Below are positions 1,808-30,710 of a stretch of DNA of 31,682 nucleotides, in pieces. Below the pieces are notes generated by a model, which had not been told where the DNA came from, searched no databases, and saw nothing but the letters and a program-made list of their open reading frames with translations. The translations under genes and the position numbers were made by a program. The stretch is from a virus: positions 1 through 31,682 of the IMG/VR virus record IMGVR_UViG_3300027489_000013; one strand, written 5' to 3'. Each line of letters starts with the position of its first letter. Positions within the stretch are counted from its first letter, which is position 1.

Positions 1808-3486
1808 AAATCGACAAAGTTACAAAACGATGGATTAGAAACGAAGCTGACGAAAGGGCGGCTGCGAACGGATGCCGCATGGACGAAGCTCGCGGCCAGT
1901 TTGTGATTGACTGGGCGCGTGACAATCTCGTTCTCTGGGAAGGTGACTGTGCTGGGCTACCATTGATTGCGAGCGACTGGCAGGCAGATTGTGCAATGCG
2001 TCTGTTCGGTTGGGTCAAGATGTCAGCTCGATGGAAACGCGAAGTGCGACGATTCCGAGAGGCGTTGATTGGCAAGCCGAAGAAAAACAAGAAGTCGCCG
2101 ACTGTAGCGTGGTGGGATCTTTACTTGCTTGATGGCGACGGTGAGCCCGGCCAGAACGTTTACACGGCAGCCAAGGACGGGCAGCAGGCCAGAATTGTTC
2201 AGGGCCATGCAATCAAGATGGTCCAGGCATCGCCAACGTTGTCAGCCTACATGCGGATCAATAAAACTGACTCAAGCATCACGGTCGACGAAACGAACTC
2301 GGCAATGCGAATTCTGAGCAGCGACAACGTAGCGTCACAGCAGTCAAAGGAAGGGCTGAACGGTTCATGCTCGGTTGACGAAATCCACGTTGTAGACGCG
2401 GAATTCATGAAGCGAATCAGCCGAATGGGGATTAGTCGCTCAGAGCCAATGATTATCCAGGTGACGACAGCTGGCAACGATCCAACGAGCTACGGAAAGC
2501 AGCGTTACGATTACGGCAAGCGAGTCGAATCCGGAGCATTTGAGAACGAATCGTTCTTCTTCGACTGGCATGAGGCTCCATTTGATCTTACCGACGATGA
2601 CCTGAAGAAAGACCCGATCAAGTTCGGCATGATGGCGAATCCGGCATGGGGCCACACTGTCGGAGAAGAGGAATTCATTTCAGACCTGCAGAGCTGCGAT
2701 ACGCCGTCAGCGTTGCGAACGTTCAAAATGTACCGGCTTAACATTTGGCAGCAGTCATCAAATCCATTTCTTCAGGCTCACGACTGGGAAGCCTGTCAGC
2801 GTGACGTGTCGTGGGAACATCTTGAAACGCTGCCATGCTGGGCGGGGCTTGACCTGTCACGAACTCGTGACTTGACCGCGTTGTGTCTTTGCTTCAAAGA
2901 CCATGACGGCACGCTGCACTTTCGGTGGTGGTTCTGGATGCCTGAAGACACGGCAAAACAGCGTGTCGCGGCTGCTCCATTTACTGACTGGGAGCATGAC
3001 GAAAAGGCTCAATTGACCCTGACAGATGGCGACTGGATCGACTATGATTATGTCTGGTCAACGCTGTGCGAAATTGGACAACGGTTTCAGATTCAAAAAC
3101 TACTTTACGACAAGCGATTCGCAGACTATTTGATTCAGCGGGTGATGGTTGGAGAGCAGAACAGCGACGGAACGTGGAAGCATCGGCCCGCAGAGTTTCC
3201 AATCGAGGAATGCGGGCAAGGCCCGTTCATTTTGAATGAACCGATTGAAGAATTCGAAAAGCTGGTGATGTCCCACAAATTAACGCACGATGGAAACCCA
3301 ATTGCCGCATGGCAGGCCAGCAACGTGACAAGGGGGAAGAATGGCCTGCTGTGCAAACCTAACGGGAAAGATGATGTCAGGACGATCGACGGAATGCAGG
3401 CAGCCGTCATGGCTCTTGCTGGTGTCGAAAAGGGTGAGTCAAGCTTTGCATATTCCACCGCCGGTTCAGGCGTCGTTCTTTTCTAA
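1804..3486 (+). CDS. terL: Phage terminase large subunit (Terminase_1-like)
   Basis: A 560-residue packaging ATPase/nuclease. ATG 1804 is chosen over GTG 1765 because it makes an ATGA overlap with the upstream peptide. The ATPase domain shows a P-loop-like GKPKKNKKSPT at about 90-100, a Walker B VDEIH at 191-195, and a TTAGN coupling motif at 221-225. The C-terminal RNase-H-like nuclease domain begins with GLDLSRTRDLTAL (D350), with further candidate metal ligands at D436 (YDKRF) and D529 (RTIDGMQ). The P-loop has Lys where most relatives have Gly (NKKS for NGKS). The rest of the domain is intact, so I read it as a family variant and not as inactivation. It works with TerS, the portal and probably the HNH protein at 910. 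Confidence 0.93.
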   Translation: MKIDKVTKRWIRNEADERAAANGCRMDEARGQFVIDWARDNLVLWEGDCAGLPLIASDWQADCAMRLFGWVKMSARWKREVRRFREALIGKPKKNKKSPTVAWWDLYLLDGDGEPGQNVYTAAKDGQQARIVQGHAIKMVQASPTLSAYMRINKTDSSITVDETNSAMRILSSDNVASQQSKEGLNGSCSVDEIHVVDAEFMKRISRMGISRSEPMIIQVTTAGNDPTSYGKQRYDYGKRVESGAFENESFFFDWHEAPFDLTDDDLKKDPIKFGMMANPAWGHTVGEEEFISDLQSCDTPSALRTFKMYRLNIWQQSSNPFLQAHDWEACQRDVSWEHLETLPCWAGLDLSRTRDLTALCLCFKDHDGTLHFRWWFWMPEDTAKQRVAAAPFTDWEHDEKAQLTLTDGDWIDYDYVWSTLCEIGQRFQIQKLLYDKRFADYLIQRVMVGEQNSDGTWKHRPAEFPIEECGQGPFILNEPIEEFEKLVMSHKLTHDGNPIAAWQASNVTRGKNGLLCKPNGKDDVRTIDGMQAAVMALAGVEKGESSFAYSTAGSGVVLF

Positions 3487-19164: not shown

Positions 19165-20031
19165 CTAGCCCGCCGCGAGCCGTTCGGCGGTCATGCTGAC
19201 CAGCCCCTGTGCGGACGGGTCAAGACGGCGATAAGCTGACAAAAGACTGTCTTCTGACGACTGAGCAGCCCCGAACGATTGCGGAACTCTGACGCGATCC
19301 ATTGCAGCCGTCAGGATTTCCAAGGCCGGGACATAATGATCCCGCGTGCCTAATCCGTGCCCGTGCAAAAGTGCCCCGGCATCTGATGACACTTTGCTCC
19401 ATTCGGTAATACCTCGGTCTCTGATCTGGCTCGGAAGGATTCTCGGAATCTTGGCGATGGTGCAAACTCTGTCCAGTTCGCCCCTGACGATGACCTGCGC
19501 GTGATCGTTGCTCAACTTGTAAGGAAGCTTTACAGGTTCGAGCCATTTGCGGAGCCACGGTGGAACTGGGATGCGGTGACGGTGGCCAGTCTTCTGAGCT
19601 GCCCATGTGATCGAACGGCAGTCAGGGACGGCGGAAAGTTGCAGTTTGATTGCGTCCTCAAGCCTGGCACAGGTCCAATACATCAGCACAACCAATTGGC
19701 AGCTCCACGGGGCGAGCCACGGCCAACAGGCATCGATGTCAGAGATTTCGCAAGGCTTCGGATCGGGCTTCGGCTTCTTTACCGTGTTGAGCAGCACGCA
19801 GCCACCAGCGTCAATCACGATCGTTCTCACGTCCTTCACGATGCCCCTGATTGATGACTCTGGAATCTTCTCCGCACGAGCCGCACTCACAAACTGTTCG
19901 ACGTGGGCCTGAGTGATGGTCTGAACGTCCAGATTCCCGATTAGCTTGGCAAATCGTCGGCAGTTGCTGAGCGGTGTTTTTGCAATGCTCTTTCGGTGGC
20001 AGTATTCGGTGGCATGTTCAACGATGTTCAT
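19165..20031 (-). CDS. Tyrosine recombinase (candidate integrase)
   Basis: A 288-residue protein from ATG 20031; an in-frame GTG at 20085 would add 18 residues but lies beyond a palindrome in the leader. The N-terminal half is a SAM-like core-binding domain (IVEHATEYCHRKSI, 'QTITQAHVEQFVSAARAEK'). Catalytic residues can be placed as R123 (TCARLEDAIKL), K147 (AAQKTGHRHRIPV), R204 (LPSQIRDRG), His223 or 225 (LLHGHGLGT) and nucleophile Y233 (RDHYVP). In box II the usual His of HxxR is Ser (S-Q-I-R), a tolerated change in some members. A tail of about 50 residues follows the Tyr. It is divergent from the rest of the genome in orientation and lies next to a tRNA gene, a classic attachment target. 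It is probably the integrase. Confidence 0.8.
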   Translation of the reverse strand: MNIVEHATEYCHRKSIAKTPLSNCRRFAKLIGNLDVQTITQAHVEQFVSAARAEKIPESSIRGIVKDVRTIVIDAGGCVLLNTVKKPKPDPKPCEISDIDACWPWLAPWSCQLVVLMYWTCARLEDAIKLQLSAVPDCRSITWAAQKTGHRHRIPVPPWLRKWLEPVKLPYKLSNDHAQVIVRGELDRVCTIAKIPRILPSQIRDRGITEWSKVSSDAGALLHGHGLGTRDHYVPALEILTAAMDRVRVPQSFGAAQSSEDSLLSAYRRLDPSAQGLVSMTAERLAAG

Positions 20032-20032
20032 A

Positions 20033-20078
20033 GTACGTTCCAGTGATGTGAATCCATTCACTGGCGGGCGGGTACGTT
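20033..20078. promoter_or_regulatory. Palindrome and direct repeats in the recombinase leader
   Basis: The near-continuous palindrome GTGAAT-CC-ATTCAC (20048-20061) is nested in the arms CCAGTGA (20040-20046) and TCACTGG (20058-20064). It is flanked by two copies of GTACGTT (20033-20039 and 20072-20078). It sits 17-30 bases upstream of the recombinase ATG on the minus strand. It could be an operator or a recombinase arm-binding site. The remaining sequence up to the tRNA (20079-20232) contains no ORF I believe and only a weak GATCC/GGATC inverted repeat at 20161-20180. Confidence 0.4.
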
Positions 20079-20232
20079 GTAGCACCCTAAAATCGGTTTT
20101 ATTGATTAGGAAAGAGCAGCGTTTTTTGCGGGGTGTTTCCTACTTGTGGATGGCTAGCGCGATCCTCTCCAGGGGGGATCGTCGCCCCTACTTCAGGAGC
20201 TAGTGCGAAACTGTCGAAAACATTGGGTAAAA

Positions 20233-20317
20233 GCTCGCCTGGTGGAATTGGCAGACACGCATGATTCAGGTTCATGTGCCTGTAATGGGCTTGGGAGTTC
20301 GACTCTCCCGGCGAGCA
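20233..20317 (+). tRNA. tRNA-Leu(CAG)
   Basis: An 85-nt class II tRNA. The acceptor stem GCTCGCC (20233-20239) pairs with GGCGAGC (20310-20316), with discriminator A at 20317. The D-arm contains GGTGGAATTGGCAGACAC, and the anticodon arm is CATGA-TTCAGGT-TCATG giving anticodon CAG. A long variable arm (TGCCTGTAATGGGCTT) and the T-arm GGGAG-TTCGACT-CTCCC complete it. The 3' CCA is not encoded. Everything needed for function is present. It may supplement CUG decoding during lytic growth, or be a tRNA gene associated with the attachment site of the adjacent integrase. Confidence 0.95.
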
Positions 20318-20362
20318 ATAAAGTCTGAGTGTGCTCTTTCTGATTGATTCAAAGTCTGGTCA

Positions 20363-20395
20363 GTCTGAGCGTTCGACCACTCAGGCTTTTATTTT
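20363..20395 (+). terminator. Rho-independent terminator after tRNA-Leu
   Basis: The stem GTCTGAG (20363-20369) pairs with CTCAGGC (20380-20386), 7 bp with one G-U pair and a 10-nt loop. It is followed by TTTTATTTT (20387-20395). It ends the tRNA transcript immediately before, and slightly overlapping, the -35 box of the repressor promoter. Confidence 0.75.
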
Positions 20396-20421
20396 GACAA
20401 ATGTATTCCAATCAGTATACT
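20394..20421 (+). promoter_or_regulatory. Sigma70 promoter of the repressor, with operator in the spacer
   Basis: A perfect -35 TTGACA (20394-20399), 16-bp spacer, and TATACT -10 (20416-20421). The 16-mer TATTCCAATCAGTATA (20404-20419) lies in the spacer and -10. It matches, 14 of 16, the reverse complement of the palindrome at 20717-20732, so it is a candidate operator for autoregulation. Expected transcription start is about 20428, which coincides with an ATG. Confidence 0.75.
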
Positions 20422-20427
20422 CACGGG

Positions 20428-20676
20428 ATGCAAACAGAAATGCTCAACGAAGAACAAGCCAAGGAAAATATTGCGGCCAACGTCCGTCAATTGATGGACG
20501 CGCGCAACATGACTCAGGTTGGCCTGTCAGAAGCTGCCTCGATTAGTCAGGGATTCGTCTCGAAGATCCTGCGCGGCGTAATCATGCCGAACGCGCTGCT
20601 GCTGCACAATGTTGCTGAAGCCCTTGGTGTGTCTACGGATAGGCTTCTTGACTCACCACGACGAAAAGCGTCGTGA
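20428..20676 (+). CDS. XRE/Cro-CI-type HTH repressor
   Basis: An 82-residue DNA-binding protein. ATG 20401 lies upstream of the -10 box and cannot be the start. ATG 20428 coincides with the expected transcript start (possibly leaderless); ATG 20440 would give 78 residues. The HTH_3 domain covers most of the protein: ANVRQLMDARNMTQVGLSEA, ASISQGFVSKILRGVIMPNA (recognition helix SQGFVSKILRG), then LLLHNVAEALGVSTDRLLD. There is no separate dimerisation or LexA-type cleavage domain, so RecA-driven self-cleavage is not expected. It is co-oriented with the early genes. Shared operator-like sequences upstream and downstream suggest control of its own and the early promoter. Confidence 0.85.
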   Translation: MQTEMLNEEQAKENIAANVRQLMDARNMTQVGLSEAASISQGFVSKILRGVIMPNALLLHNVAEALGVSTDRLLDSPRRKAS

Positions 20677-20688
20677 ACAAAATGTTCA
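20674..20688. promoter_or_regulatory. Inverted repeat after the repressor gene
   Basis: TGAACA-AAA-TGTTCA forms a perfect 6-bp inverted repeat with a 3-bp centre, starting at the repressor stop codon. It lies 20 bp upstream of the second promoter. It is a possible second class of operator or an activator site. It does not resemble the TATTCC operators. Confidence 0.4.
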
Positions 20689-20707
20689 AAATTGTTTACA
20701 CTGGATG

Positions 20708-20736
20708 TTGACAGAATATTCCGATTGGAATATCGT
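20708..20736 (+). promoter_or_regulatory. Early promoter with palindromic operator
   Basis: TTGACA (20708-20713), 17-bp spacer, TATCGT (20731-20736). Inside the spacer is the perfect inverted repeat ATATTCC-GATT-GGAATAT (20716-20733), related to the site in the repressor promoter and placed at almost the same distance from the -35 box. It is the likely rightward early promoter repressed by the 20428 gene product. The stretch from here to 20869 shows no believable ORF. Confidence 0.7.
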
Positions 20737-20869
20737 TCCCGCGTTGCTTGGCAACATGAATCTGATTGCGAGTCGAACCGCAAGATGATTCAGGACTAAC
20801 CAGACTTGTCACTGCAGACCGATCCACGGTCGAACTGTCAAGAGATGCTTGATGGTTGGTGACGCAACG

Positions 20870-20892
20870 GAGTAGACGGACGGAGTCTACTC
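20870..20892 (+). other. Hairpin just before an HNH gene
   Basis: A perfect 8-bp stem, GAGTAGAC (20870-20877) and GTCTACTC (20885-20892), with a 7-nt loop. It ends 2 bp before the GGAGG ribosome site of the following HNH gene. There is no T run. It may insulate or expose the ribosome site, or be an operator. Confidence 0.5.
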
Positions 20893-20907
20893 ATGGAGGT
20901 TTGCGGC

Positions 20908-21432
20908 ATGAGTACGCGCGTTTTGCACGATTCGTTCATTGTCACTGATTTACTCAGGCATCGATTCTTTGCAAAGACAATTGAGGCTTCATCCGGCTGT
21001 CTCATTTGGACTGGCGCAGTCCAAAGGCACAGTTACGGCGCTTTCAAAATCGGACATCAAAAGATCGACGCTCATGTCGCATCGTGGCGAATCGCGAACG
21101 GTGGACAACCAGTTCCGCTTGGCCAACTTGTGATGCACAAGTGTGACTGCCGGATGTGCGTCAATCCGCAACATCTGCAACTTGGGACCGTCTCGCAGAA
21201 CATGCTTGACGCTCACAGGGGTGGACGCGGAGAAGACTTCAAGAGCCAGGGCGAGGACCACTACGGCGCTATCTTGACGGATGAAATGGTTCAGCGAATT
21301 AGAGCCGAATACGTGCCGTACAAGCGAAGCTTTAACCAGATGGCTCGCGAGATCGGAGTGAGCGAATCGTGTGTTCGTCTTGCGTACCATAGGAAGTCGT
21401 GGAAGCACATTTCGGTCGGCGAATGTAATTGA
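20908..21432 (+). CDS. HNH homing-type endonuclease with C-terminal HTH
   Basis: A 174-residue protein. ATG 20908 has GGAGG (20895-20899) at 8 nt; ATG 20893 would overlap this ribosome site and is rejected. The nuclease domain is of the HNH_3 type: HRFFAKTIEASSGCLIWTGA, HSYGAFKIGHQKIDAHVASW, LVMHKCDCRMCVNPQHLQLG (His and Cys ligands, Asn), and TVSQNMLDAHRGGRG. The C-terminal 55 residues (AILTDEMVQRIRAEYV, NQMAREIGVSESCVRLAYHR) look like an HTH that would bind the target. This is the I-HmuI-like layout of free-standing phage homing endonucleases. It is the first gene behind the early promoter. Confidence 0.85.
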   Translation: MSTRVLHDSFIVTDLLRHRFFAKTIEASSGCLIWTGAVQRHSYGAFKIGHQKIDAHVASWRIANGGQPVPLGQLVMHKCDCRMCVNPQHLQLGTVSQNMLDAHRGGRGEDFKSQGEDHYGAILTDEMVQRIRAEYVPYKRSFNQMAREIGVSESCVRLAYHRKSWKHISVGECN

Positions 21433-21571
21433 CTGATTGGGCGCGGATCGGCCGCACCCTCATCGAATCAGACTTTGTCACGCAGCCCGAGCAACGGGCG
21501 ACAACTCCACATCGTGGAGCGTGACGCAGATGGAAGCTGCCTCGCAGGGAGGCGGATTAAACGGTAAACGC

Positions 21572-22396
21572 ATGAATGCGGCTATCGAGATACGCGGTAC
21601 GGTCGTTGCTAAAGGTGCGCCGAACAGGTGCAAAGACGGAAGCACAAAGATGTGCTCGATCGTCGTTAGCGATGAACTGGGCCTGATTCGGCTTTACCCG
21701 CTTGCGGTTTCCGAAGATAAAGACATTCGTATTTGGTCCCGAATTTCTGGGCAGGTCCGCAAGTCGAACACAGACCAGCGGGCAGAATCCTTCCGTGTCG
21801 TCGATGTCGAGCCAACAGGTTCCATTGATGACTCAAGGGCAAAAGCCGACCTGATGAACTCGTGCGTGTTGCGATCCGGATACGTCGACCCGATCGAATT
21901 CCAGAACGAACGCAGACGCAGCATCTGTATCGTCAAGTCAGAGTCAGCACTCGGGGCTGAGCTGGAATCGAGAACGGAAGTAGATCAGGAACCGGCAATC
22001 GACAACGAAGATGCCTGGGTGATGACTCAAGCCGACTTTCCGTTCAAGCCATACATTAAATGGCGAAGCGTTCAGGGAGTATCACACCGAACGCACATTT
22101 GCTCGCAAGAGGTCTACATGGGCATGAAGCACAATGCCTCAAGCCCGTTCAGAATCTTCGAGAATCTCCATGTCGGTGACGCAGATTACGAACACTGGCT
22201 GATTCTCGGAAACATGCGAGACCGGCGAAACGTGTGGGTCATTGCTCACATGCACCGGCAAAAAAAAATTGCTTCCGCTACGAATACAAACTCGCTGACT
22301 TTCGATGGCGACGAAGAAAACTGGCCCTACTCGCAGCAAGAGGCAATCAATGCGAGGACTGTGGAGCCACAAAGAACATTCAGCTTCACCACCTGA
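21572..22396 (+). CDS. Conserved-type hypothetical protein; 3' end may be fused by frameshift to HNH
   Basis: In frame from ATG 21572 (MNAAIEIRGTVVAKGAPNRC) this gives 274 residues. ATG 21530 has a GGAG 10 nt upstream and is an equal alternative. The N-terminal half reads like a small OB/beta protein (IRGTVVAKG, IRLYPLAVSEDKDIRIW). The middle is charged, and a segment HWLILGNMRDRRNVWVIAHM resembles the natural C-terminus of a protein family I remember from bacterial genomes but cannot name. At 22260-22268 there is a run of nine A. Beyond it this frame continues 43 residues with no family character, while the -1 frame becomes a perfect HNH domain, so the true protein may switch frame here. Confidence 0.6.
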   Translation: MNAAIEIRGTVVAKGAPNRCKDGSTKMCSIVVSDELGLIRLYPLAVSEDKDIRIWSRISGQVRKSNTDQRAESFRVVDVEPTGSIDDSRAKADLMNSCVLRSGYVDPIEFQNERRRSICIVKSESALGAELESRTEVDQEPAIDNEDAWVMTQADFPFKPYIKWRSVQGVSHRTHICSQEVYMGMKHNASSPFRIFENLHVGDADYEHWLILGNMRDRRNVWVIAHMHRQKKIASATNTNSLTFDGDEENWPYSQQEAINARTVEPQRTFSFTT

Positions 22397-24475: not shown

Positions 24476-24633
24476 CTCACTCCCAGACTTTAAGTGCGTC
24501 CGAGTGAGACGATCTGGCGTGCTGTGCGGCAAGCAGCGACCAGAAGAACCGTGAGATCCGGTTTACTAAATCAAGAGTGATCGGAAAGCGGCTGGCTCGT
24601 TGCTGGTCGTGGCCCCTTGCAACGGCGGGGGCC
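24476..24633 (+). other. Hairpin-rich leader upstream of csrA
   Basis: The 270-bp gap before csrA contains at least three stems: CTCACTC/GAGTGAG (24476-24482 and 24502-24508, 19-nt loop), AACCG/CGGTT (24547-24551 and 24559-24563), and GGCCCC/GGGGCC (24611-24616 and 24628-24633). No believable ORF is present. A short frame from ATG 24653 overlaps csrA and looks spurious. It may be a structured 5' leader or small RNA. GGA, the core of CsrA sites, occurs near 24584 and in the Shine-Dalgarno itself. Confidence 0.4.
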
Positions 24634-24734
24634 GAATACAAGCGGGCTCGGCATGGATCAAAGCCGATCGGGTGATCTCCGACGCAAACGATTTGCGGCC
24701 CGTTTTTTCAAACAACAAAGCAAGGAGGTGTTTA

Positions 24735-24926
24735 GTGTTAGTTCTGAGCCGAAAAGCCAATCAGGAAATCTGCATCGGTGATGACATCCGCGTGATGGTC
24801 ATTGAGATCAGGGGCGACAAAGTCAGGCTTGGAGTGACGGCTCCGCGGGACACGTCGGTCCATCGTCACGAGATATATGACGCTATCAAGCAAGTCATTG
24901 AGTCCAACGACAGTGATTGTGATTGA
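24735..24926 (+). CDS. csrA: Carbon storage regulator CsrA/RsmA
   Basis: A 63-residue protein from GTG 24735 with AAGGAGG (24722-24728) at 6 nt. It matches the canonical family along its whole length: MLVLSRKANQEICIGDDIRV (L4 and R6 of the RNA-binding strand), MVIEIRGDKVRLGVTAP, then VHRHEIYDAIKQVIE with the second RNA-binding arginine in VHR. CsrA homodimers bind GGA in hairpin loops or Shine-Dalgarno regions and block or modify translation. A phage copy could reprogramme host messages or time its own early-late switch. The AAGGAGG of its own leader fits an autoregulatory CsrA site. Confidence 0.93.
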   Translation: MLVLSRKANQEICIGDDIRVMVIEIRGDKVRLGVTAPRDTSVHRHEIYDAIKQVIESNDSDCD

Positions 24927-30383: not shown

Positions 30384-30710
30384 ATGAGCCAGAAAATTCC
30401 GCGTGATGTGTATCGAGTCGTCTACGACAAAGACGGGAAGCCGTTTGTCGCTGGGCGTCGGCTAATTTCTGTCAATCGCAGCTGGTACACGTACGAATGC
30501 AAGGACGGAACGCTCATCAAGGAAAACGGGAATCACTGGCACGATACGATGATGGCGGCGATGTATGTCGAGTGTGACTTTCTGTTGATTCAGATGACAA
30601 TGCCGAATGTGTTTCCGCAGGATGTCACGCGCGACAAAATGAAATGCCTGCTCGATGAGGCTGTAGAGATTGGCAAGTTGGTTGAAATGGTCGGGCACAT
30701 TGGAGCCTGA
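30384..30710 (+). CDS. Small hypothetical protein, member of a tandem pair
   Basis: A 108-residue protein from ATG 30384 (ATG 30381 is in frame one codon earlier), with GGGGAAA upstream. It opens SQKIPRDVYRVVYDKDGKPF and VAGRRLISVNRSWYTYEC, then GTLIKENGNHWHDTMMAAMY, and a helical end (DEAVEIGKLVEMVGHIG). I do not recognise the family. The first 28 residues are 24/28 identical to the start of the gene at 31599, so it is one of two paralogues enclosing the DNA methyltransferase. Confidence 0.65.
   Translation: MSQKIPRDVYRVVYDKDGKPFVAGRRLISVNRSWYTYECKDGTLIKENGNHWHDTMMAAMYVECDFLLIQMTMPNVFPQDVTRDKMKCLLDEAVEIGKLVEMVGHIGA

Follow-up and report, generated by a model that had tools for sequence, protein, structure and literature searches.

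A putative immunity cassette with paired operators, exchanged among uncultured tailed phages

IMGVR_UViG_3300027489_000013 is a 31.7-kb IMG/VR contig, a linear virus record that may be incomplete, and its full length of 31,682 bases is called the window in this study. The record carries structural genes (terminase, portal, capsid, and tape-measure) and, 3' of a small helix-turn-helix (HTH) gene, a set of early-type genes (HNH, ParB-like, CsrA, exonuclease VIII-like, RusA, and phosphatase). Searching 50,697 isolated phage records returned no match for the integrase and one weak match only for the capsid, and host searches with the integrase and with a tRNA 3'-fragment pattern found no match in 84,980 genomes. 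The following features surround the HTH gene:

19165-20085, minus strand: tyrosine-recombinase-like integrase, the flanking gene (PHROG 1 integrase, E 1.1e-8; conserved R, K, R, H, and Y positions in the alignment)
20233-20317, plus strand: tRNA-Leu(CAG), found by ARAGORN; probable att-site region, where the exchanged cassette has its left edge (identity to relative L003 drops from 0.97-1.00 to about 0.45 across the tRNA)
20320-20395, plus strand: terminator-like RNA element, made up of an outer stem, an inner hairpin whose loop is conserved, and a U-tract (covariation)
20394-20421, plus strand: repressor promoter, TTGACA-16-TATACT, sigma-70-like match (TTGACA at 20394-20399)
20404-20419: predicted operator in the repressor promoter, TATTCCAATCAGTATA, 5/8 pairs symmetric
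20428-20676, plus strand: putative Xre-type HTH repressor, 82 aa (PF01381 HTH_3, E 5.6e-10, 39.6 bits with the cut-off at 23)
20708-20736, plus strand: early promoter, TTGACA-17-TATCGT, sigma-70-like match (TTGACA at 20708-20713)
20717-20732: predicted operator in the early promoter, TATTCCGATTGGAATA, 7/8 pairs symmetric
20803-20908, plus strand: structured 5' leader of the early transcript (helix 20808-20812/20859-20863 closes two hairpins; four ANGGA motifs)
20908-21432, plus strand: first early gene, HNH endonuclease (PHROG 1872, E 2.4e-24; start ATG at 20908 inferred from GGAGGT)

The two predicted dyad sites are both located in promoter spacers and flank the HTH gene, whose product passed the curated PF01381 cut-off for Xre/Cro-CI HTH proteins and thus bears out the 82-residue HTH protein of an earlier note on this DNA. 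That note had also claimed that the two sites agree at 14 of 16 positions after reversal and sit at nearly the same offset from a TTGACA box; recomputing gave the same 14/16, with gaps of 4 nt for the 20404 site and 3 nt for the 20717 site. What it called a palindrome downstream is a dyad, short of perfect symmetry by one pair in eight. The early site is the more symmetric of the two, which suggests different affinities, a point that adds to the earlier note. Allowing for 3 mismatches, the motif had 5 matches against 0.87 expected, a count reached by 0/100 shuffles, and scanning the 31,682-base record for further copies yielded no other good one besides these two sites. Of the sigma-70-like matches in the region, the two promoters ranked highest (11/12 and 10/12); as promoter-like matches there numbered 3 against 2.4 in shuffles, the promoters by themselves prove nothing. 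The matched dyad pair flanking the gene was reached by 4/300 shuffles and by 0.9% of random genomic positions. Evidence from the window alone is therefore moderate, and it is the relatives that make the case convincing.

Seven further contigs were found by their integrases, two of which (L008 and L009) were alike in the cassette region, and L009 was omitted from the comparisons. L056, with an integrase 49% identical to that of the window, was added by a repressor search, and the comparison set thus consisted of eight integrase-bearing contigs of an uncultured phage group, window included. The same order was common to 8/8 contigs: integrase, tRNA-Leu or its 3' fragment, terminator, repressor promoter, small HTH gene, early promoter, and early genes. 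Repressor and early genes pointed the same way in all eight cassettes, as had been noted for the window. The protein in the slot between the two promoters fell into four types, two of them Xre, one a MerR-like winged HTH, and one another HTH:

Type A, Xre: the window and L006
Type B, 74-aa winged HTH: L003, L004, and L008
Type C, 64 aa, other HTH: L005
Type D, another Xre: L007 and L056

For the type A repressor, AlphaFold gave a model of insufficient quality (pLDDT 62); the usable type B model (pLDDT 86) was closest to MerR-type proteins, yet no match reached E 1e-3. Repressor-only searches recovered no type A relatives besides L006. Each of the eight repressors has small residues at its C-terminus (AS, SA, RA, AG, or VS), mostly behind a basic tail, and these ends could possibly serve as a proteolysis signal usable for induction. 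The start codon of the 20428 ORF lies 6 nt past the -10, and the repressor mRNA is for this reason probably leaderless. Seven cassettes have their start codon 6-7 nt past the -10, so that transcription start would fall at the AUG, and L056 shows the same spacing only if its second ATG (locus position 3001) is the start. Profile searches showed that a second HTH_3 gene is absent from the window and from the 35.6-kb L007 contig; the L056 contig held one further HTH_3 gene over the cut-off and one weak match. No match to the S24/LexA-like cleavage domain (PF00717) was found in 11 records, and neither a Cro-like partner nor an inducer-sensing domain was evident.

A gapless 16-mer comparison of own against early promoter regions was not significant for L004, L005, and L007. 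I then used a dyad-aware score, chosen after this result had been seen, which, for every combination of an own-promoter with an early-promoter region, takes the best two dyads with a common half-site. All-against-all scoring took in seven cassettes (all except L056), and each type's own pairing was both the row and the column maximum, at 32/35 for A, 36-39 for B, 30 for C, and 34 for D, with dyad-pair shuffle means near 26. Across the seven cassettes, 4, 0, 0, 0, 0, 8, and 0 of 300 shuffles reached the observed score; type C was the weakest, with 8/300 shuffles and about 6% of random genomic positions reaching its score. When whole contigs were scanned for half-sites, the cassette sites were the top two sites of their own type (the second score of type C being tied with others) and comparable sites of the other types were absent. 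The early site was more symmetric than the own site in types A, B, and D, and the own-promoter site of type D abuts the -35, outside the spacer.

Both operators were kept in L006, whose repressor is 76% identical to that of the window, and a 27-nt block of the early promoter that takes in its -35 and its operator, GTTGACAGAATATTCCGATTGGAATAT, was unchanged between the two while its flanks had diverged. Likewise, the early operator of L056, CGGGTGGAATACCACCCG, was identical to that of L007, with repressors 69% identical, and L056, which was read later, had the same pair score as L007 (34). A change of repressor type comes with a change of both operators. Cognate operators in the own and early promoters that co-vary with the repressor are the pattern of an autoregulated phage immunity repressor, and this co-variation supports the proposal of the earlier note that the HTH protein would repress both its own and the early promoter.

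Comparing the window with L003 located the unit that changes. DNA identity was 93-100% up to about 20180, dropped to 72% in the tRNA, and was about 45% from the terminator through the repressor to the early promoter. The integrases of these two phages are 95% identical and their repressors, operators, and promoters are unrelated, which indicates that a cassette of ~0.5 kb is exchanged among relatives. Sharing of repressor types tells the same story from the other side: the window and L006 both carry type A with integrases that are 78% identical, and L007 and L056 both carry type D with integrases that are 49% identical, so that repressor and integrase histories disagree, as exchange would predict. 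The unit that the earlier note described as a compact switch is, beyond being compact, an exchangeable cassette.

The cassette was present in 8/8 integrase-bearing records. The integrase was missing from three long relatives (39, 30, and 24 kb) whose portal proteins are closely similar (89-100%), and a profile search found no HTH_3 gene in any of them (L029, L031, and L033, from records G001, G003, and G013, respectively). In G001 and G013, which may be virulent, a helicase-like and a methyltransferase-like gene, recognised by eye, lie ahead of the early genes. I conclude with a probability of roughly 0.8 that the window derives from a temperate tailed phage and that 20320-20736 is its immunity (lysogeny-maintenance) cassette, in which an Xre protein would act on early and own operators and which is exchanged as a block among sister phages.

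The position of the gene next to the integrase and the tRNA would also suit an excisionase-like directionality factor of the Cox/Apl kind, repressing transcription as well but having its main job in excision at the neighbouring att, and types B and C indeed gave weak matches to excisionase families (PHROG 66, 2907, and 2655). The binding sites of Apl-like directionality factors are direct repeats at att, spaced by one helix turn (PMC7498355), whereas the only two sites predicted here are single dyads, both within promoters and neither near the tRNA/att. Since types A and D are moreover Xre proteins with repressor-type matches, and the type B model appears closest to MerR-type regulators, this explanation is unlikely. 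Low odds also attach to the 20428 product being a Cro-like early regulator, with the true maintenance repressor elsewhere or beyond the ends of the linear, possibly incomplete record. Its 82 aa are Cro-sized, but the gene is preceded by a promoter of its own that contains an operator, and it lies upstream of the early operon rather than inside it; the profile searches revealed no further HTH_3 gene in either the window or L007 and no S24 peptidase domain in the 11 records, and the integrase-less relatives are without HTH_3 genes.

A restriction-modification controller (C) protein would likewise be a small, probably leaderless Xre protein, and in the window an HNH endonuclease comes next that could be its nuclease; such a role is highly improbable because the downstream gene is not constant among relatives, the operators overlap the spacer in the fashion of a repressor, and a methyltransferase is not adjacent, the nearest downstream DNA methyltransferase lying about 10 kb off, at 30670. 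Chance resemblance of AT-rich promoter spacers, which about 1% of random positions would allow for the window alone, is likewise highly improbable, as the pairs recur with a sequence specific to each of the four repressor types, and the sites have stayed constant where their flanks diverged.

The left edge of the exchanged cassette lies at the tRNA. A whole tRNA-Leu(CAG) was present in four phages (window 20233-20317, L003 468-552, L006 3866-3951, and L056 2777-2860) and only its 3' fragment in L004, L005, L007, and L008. The tRNA sequences differ though the integrases are alike, with the exchange boundary at the tRNA. In the terminator element, 9/22 consensus pairs were changed on both sides among 6 sequences, compensatory changes that support it. 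Its outer stem covaries between the window and its relatives and its inner motif, CAAAGTCTGG / CAAGTCCCGG, is conserved; the role of the RNA element at 20320-20395 may go beyond termination. In the interval from the repressor gene to the early promoter no terminator was found, so that repressor transcripts might enter the early genes even in a lysogen.

The structured early leader was also found in L004-L008 and L056, and a second copy lies at 21472-21572 of the window. The closing helix, GTCAC/GTGAC (GCAAC/GTTGC in L056), encloses two hairpins of variable sequence, and two to four ANGGA motifs per leader are situated 3' of the hairpins in the seven leaders counted. Helix lengths vary among the aligned relatives. 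Rfam gave no match in the window region and only tRNAs in the relatives. Beyond the second leader copy, the ORF listed at 21437-22396 probably has its TTG start placed too early, an in-frame ATG at 21572, 3' of that leader, being likelier. The first early gene varies among close relatives (HNH, GIY-YIG-like, or ParB-like), which suggests that mobile endonuclease genes were inserted 3' of the leader. The window also encodes a CsrA homolog (24600-24926, domain 24738-24893; PF02599, E 9.9e-23), and a CsrA gene was present in 8/13 records of the group, integrase-less ones included; phage CsrA genes have been reported previously (PMC7366521, PMC9144972). The structured early leader is possibly a target of the phage's own CsrA, and a conserved structured leader with ANGGA motifs in CsrA-encoding phages is the most interesting further lead from this analysis.

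Taken as an immunity switch, the cassette would work as follows. The 82-aa Xre protein, presumably as a dimer, would bind the dyad in the spacer of the early promoter as well as the weaker related site in the spacer of its own, same-direction promoter, and the bound repressor would keep RNA polymerase off. The more symmetric early site would be filled first, shutting the early genes at a stage when repressor synthesis continues to some extent; with more repressor present, its own promoter would be shut, too, and its level would remain steady. Transcription from the side of the tRNA would be kept out by the terminator 5' of the repressor promoter. The repressor gene is inherited as one block with the two operators and the two promoters, and in sister phages this block has been replaced by others that have unrelated DNA-binding proteins, which should alter immunity specificity. 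On this basis, cassette types predict which sister phages are homo- and which are heteroimmune.

The underlying sequence rule, a dyad at the repressor promoter and a usually more symmetric dyad in the early promoter, offers a way to find immunity repressors together with their operators in phages that have not been cultured and whose small HTH genes usually stay unassigned, and here the putative immunity modules are seen to cross protein-fold boundaries. A broader and more doubtful proposal is that of a minimal one-regulator lysogeny switch with an interchangeable DNA-binding fold, in which Xre, MerR-like, and other HTH proteins would have entered the same slot independently, each with its operator pair, with breakpoints at the tRNA att site and the structured early leader, and in which phage CsrA may act on the leader as a further layer of control in place of Cro or antitermination.

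Among known systems, heteroimmune exchange in lambdoid phages replaces the repressor gene jointly with its operators, so that specificity changes while the flanks remain constant, and joint replacement is likewise seen here. Lambda, however, has divergent repressor and cro promoters over shared, tripartite operators, Cro, and a cleavable CI. The cassette, in line with the contrast to lambda drawn in the earlier note, has same-direction promoters with one site each and a single regulator, there being no second HTH_3 gene in the window, and its replacement reaches unrelated DNA-binding folds; without the C-terminal S24/LexA-like domain, the 20428 product stands outside the lambda CI type.

In mycobacteriophage BPs, which encodes an integrase, the gp33 repressor, and gp34, one operator lies in the -35/-10 spacer of the early promoter (PR) and a second is proximal to the repressor gene (PMC4557955). 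The cassette resembles this in having the integrase beside the repressor, an operator in the early-promoter spacer, and a second site at the repressor, but BPs has divergent promoters, a repressor acting at five loci, a Cro-like gene, and attP within the repressor gene, as is characteristic of integration-dependent immunity of the BPs type, whereas here the promoters share one direction, two sites are present, no Cro was found, and the probable att, taken as the tRNA-Leu or its 3' fragment, lies outside the ORF and 5' of the terminator at all loci. The switch of telomere phage PY54 has a single operator site and leaderless repressor mRNAs, with transcription of cI and cro starting at the AUG as determined by RACE (PMC4488713); the single operator site and the probably leaderless repressor mRNA are shared here, unlike the separate CI and Cro and the lambda-like arrangement of PY54. 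Finally, cognate sets of repressor and sites differ between subclusters of Cluster A mycobacteriophages (L5, Bxb1) and result in heteroimmunity (PMC6550527). Repressor and site sets similarly differ between the relatives studied here, but Cluster A phages combine homologous repressors with many dispersed, asymmetric stoperators, whereas each contig of the present group has two dyads.
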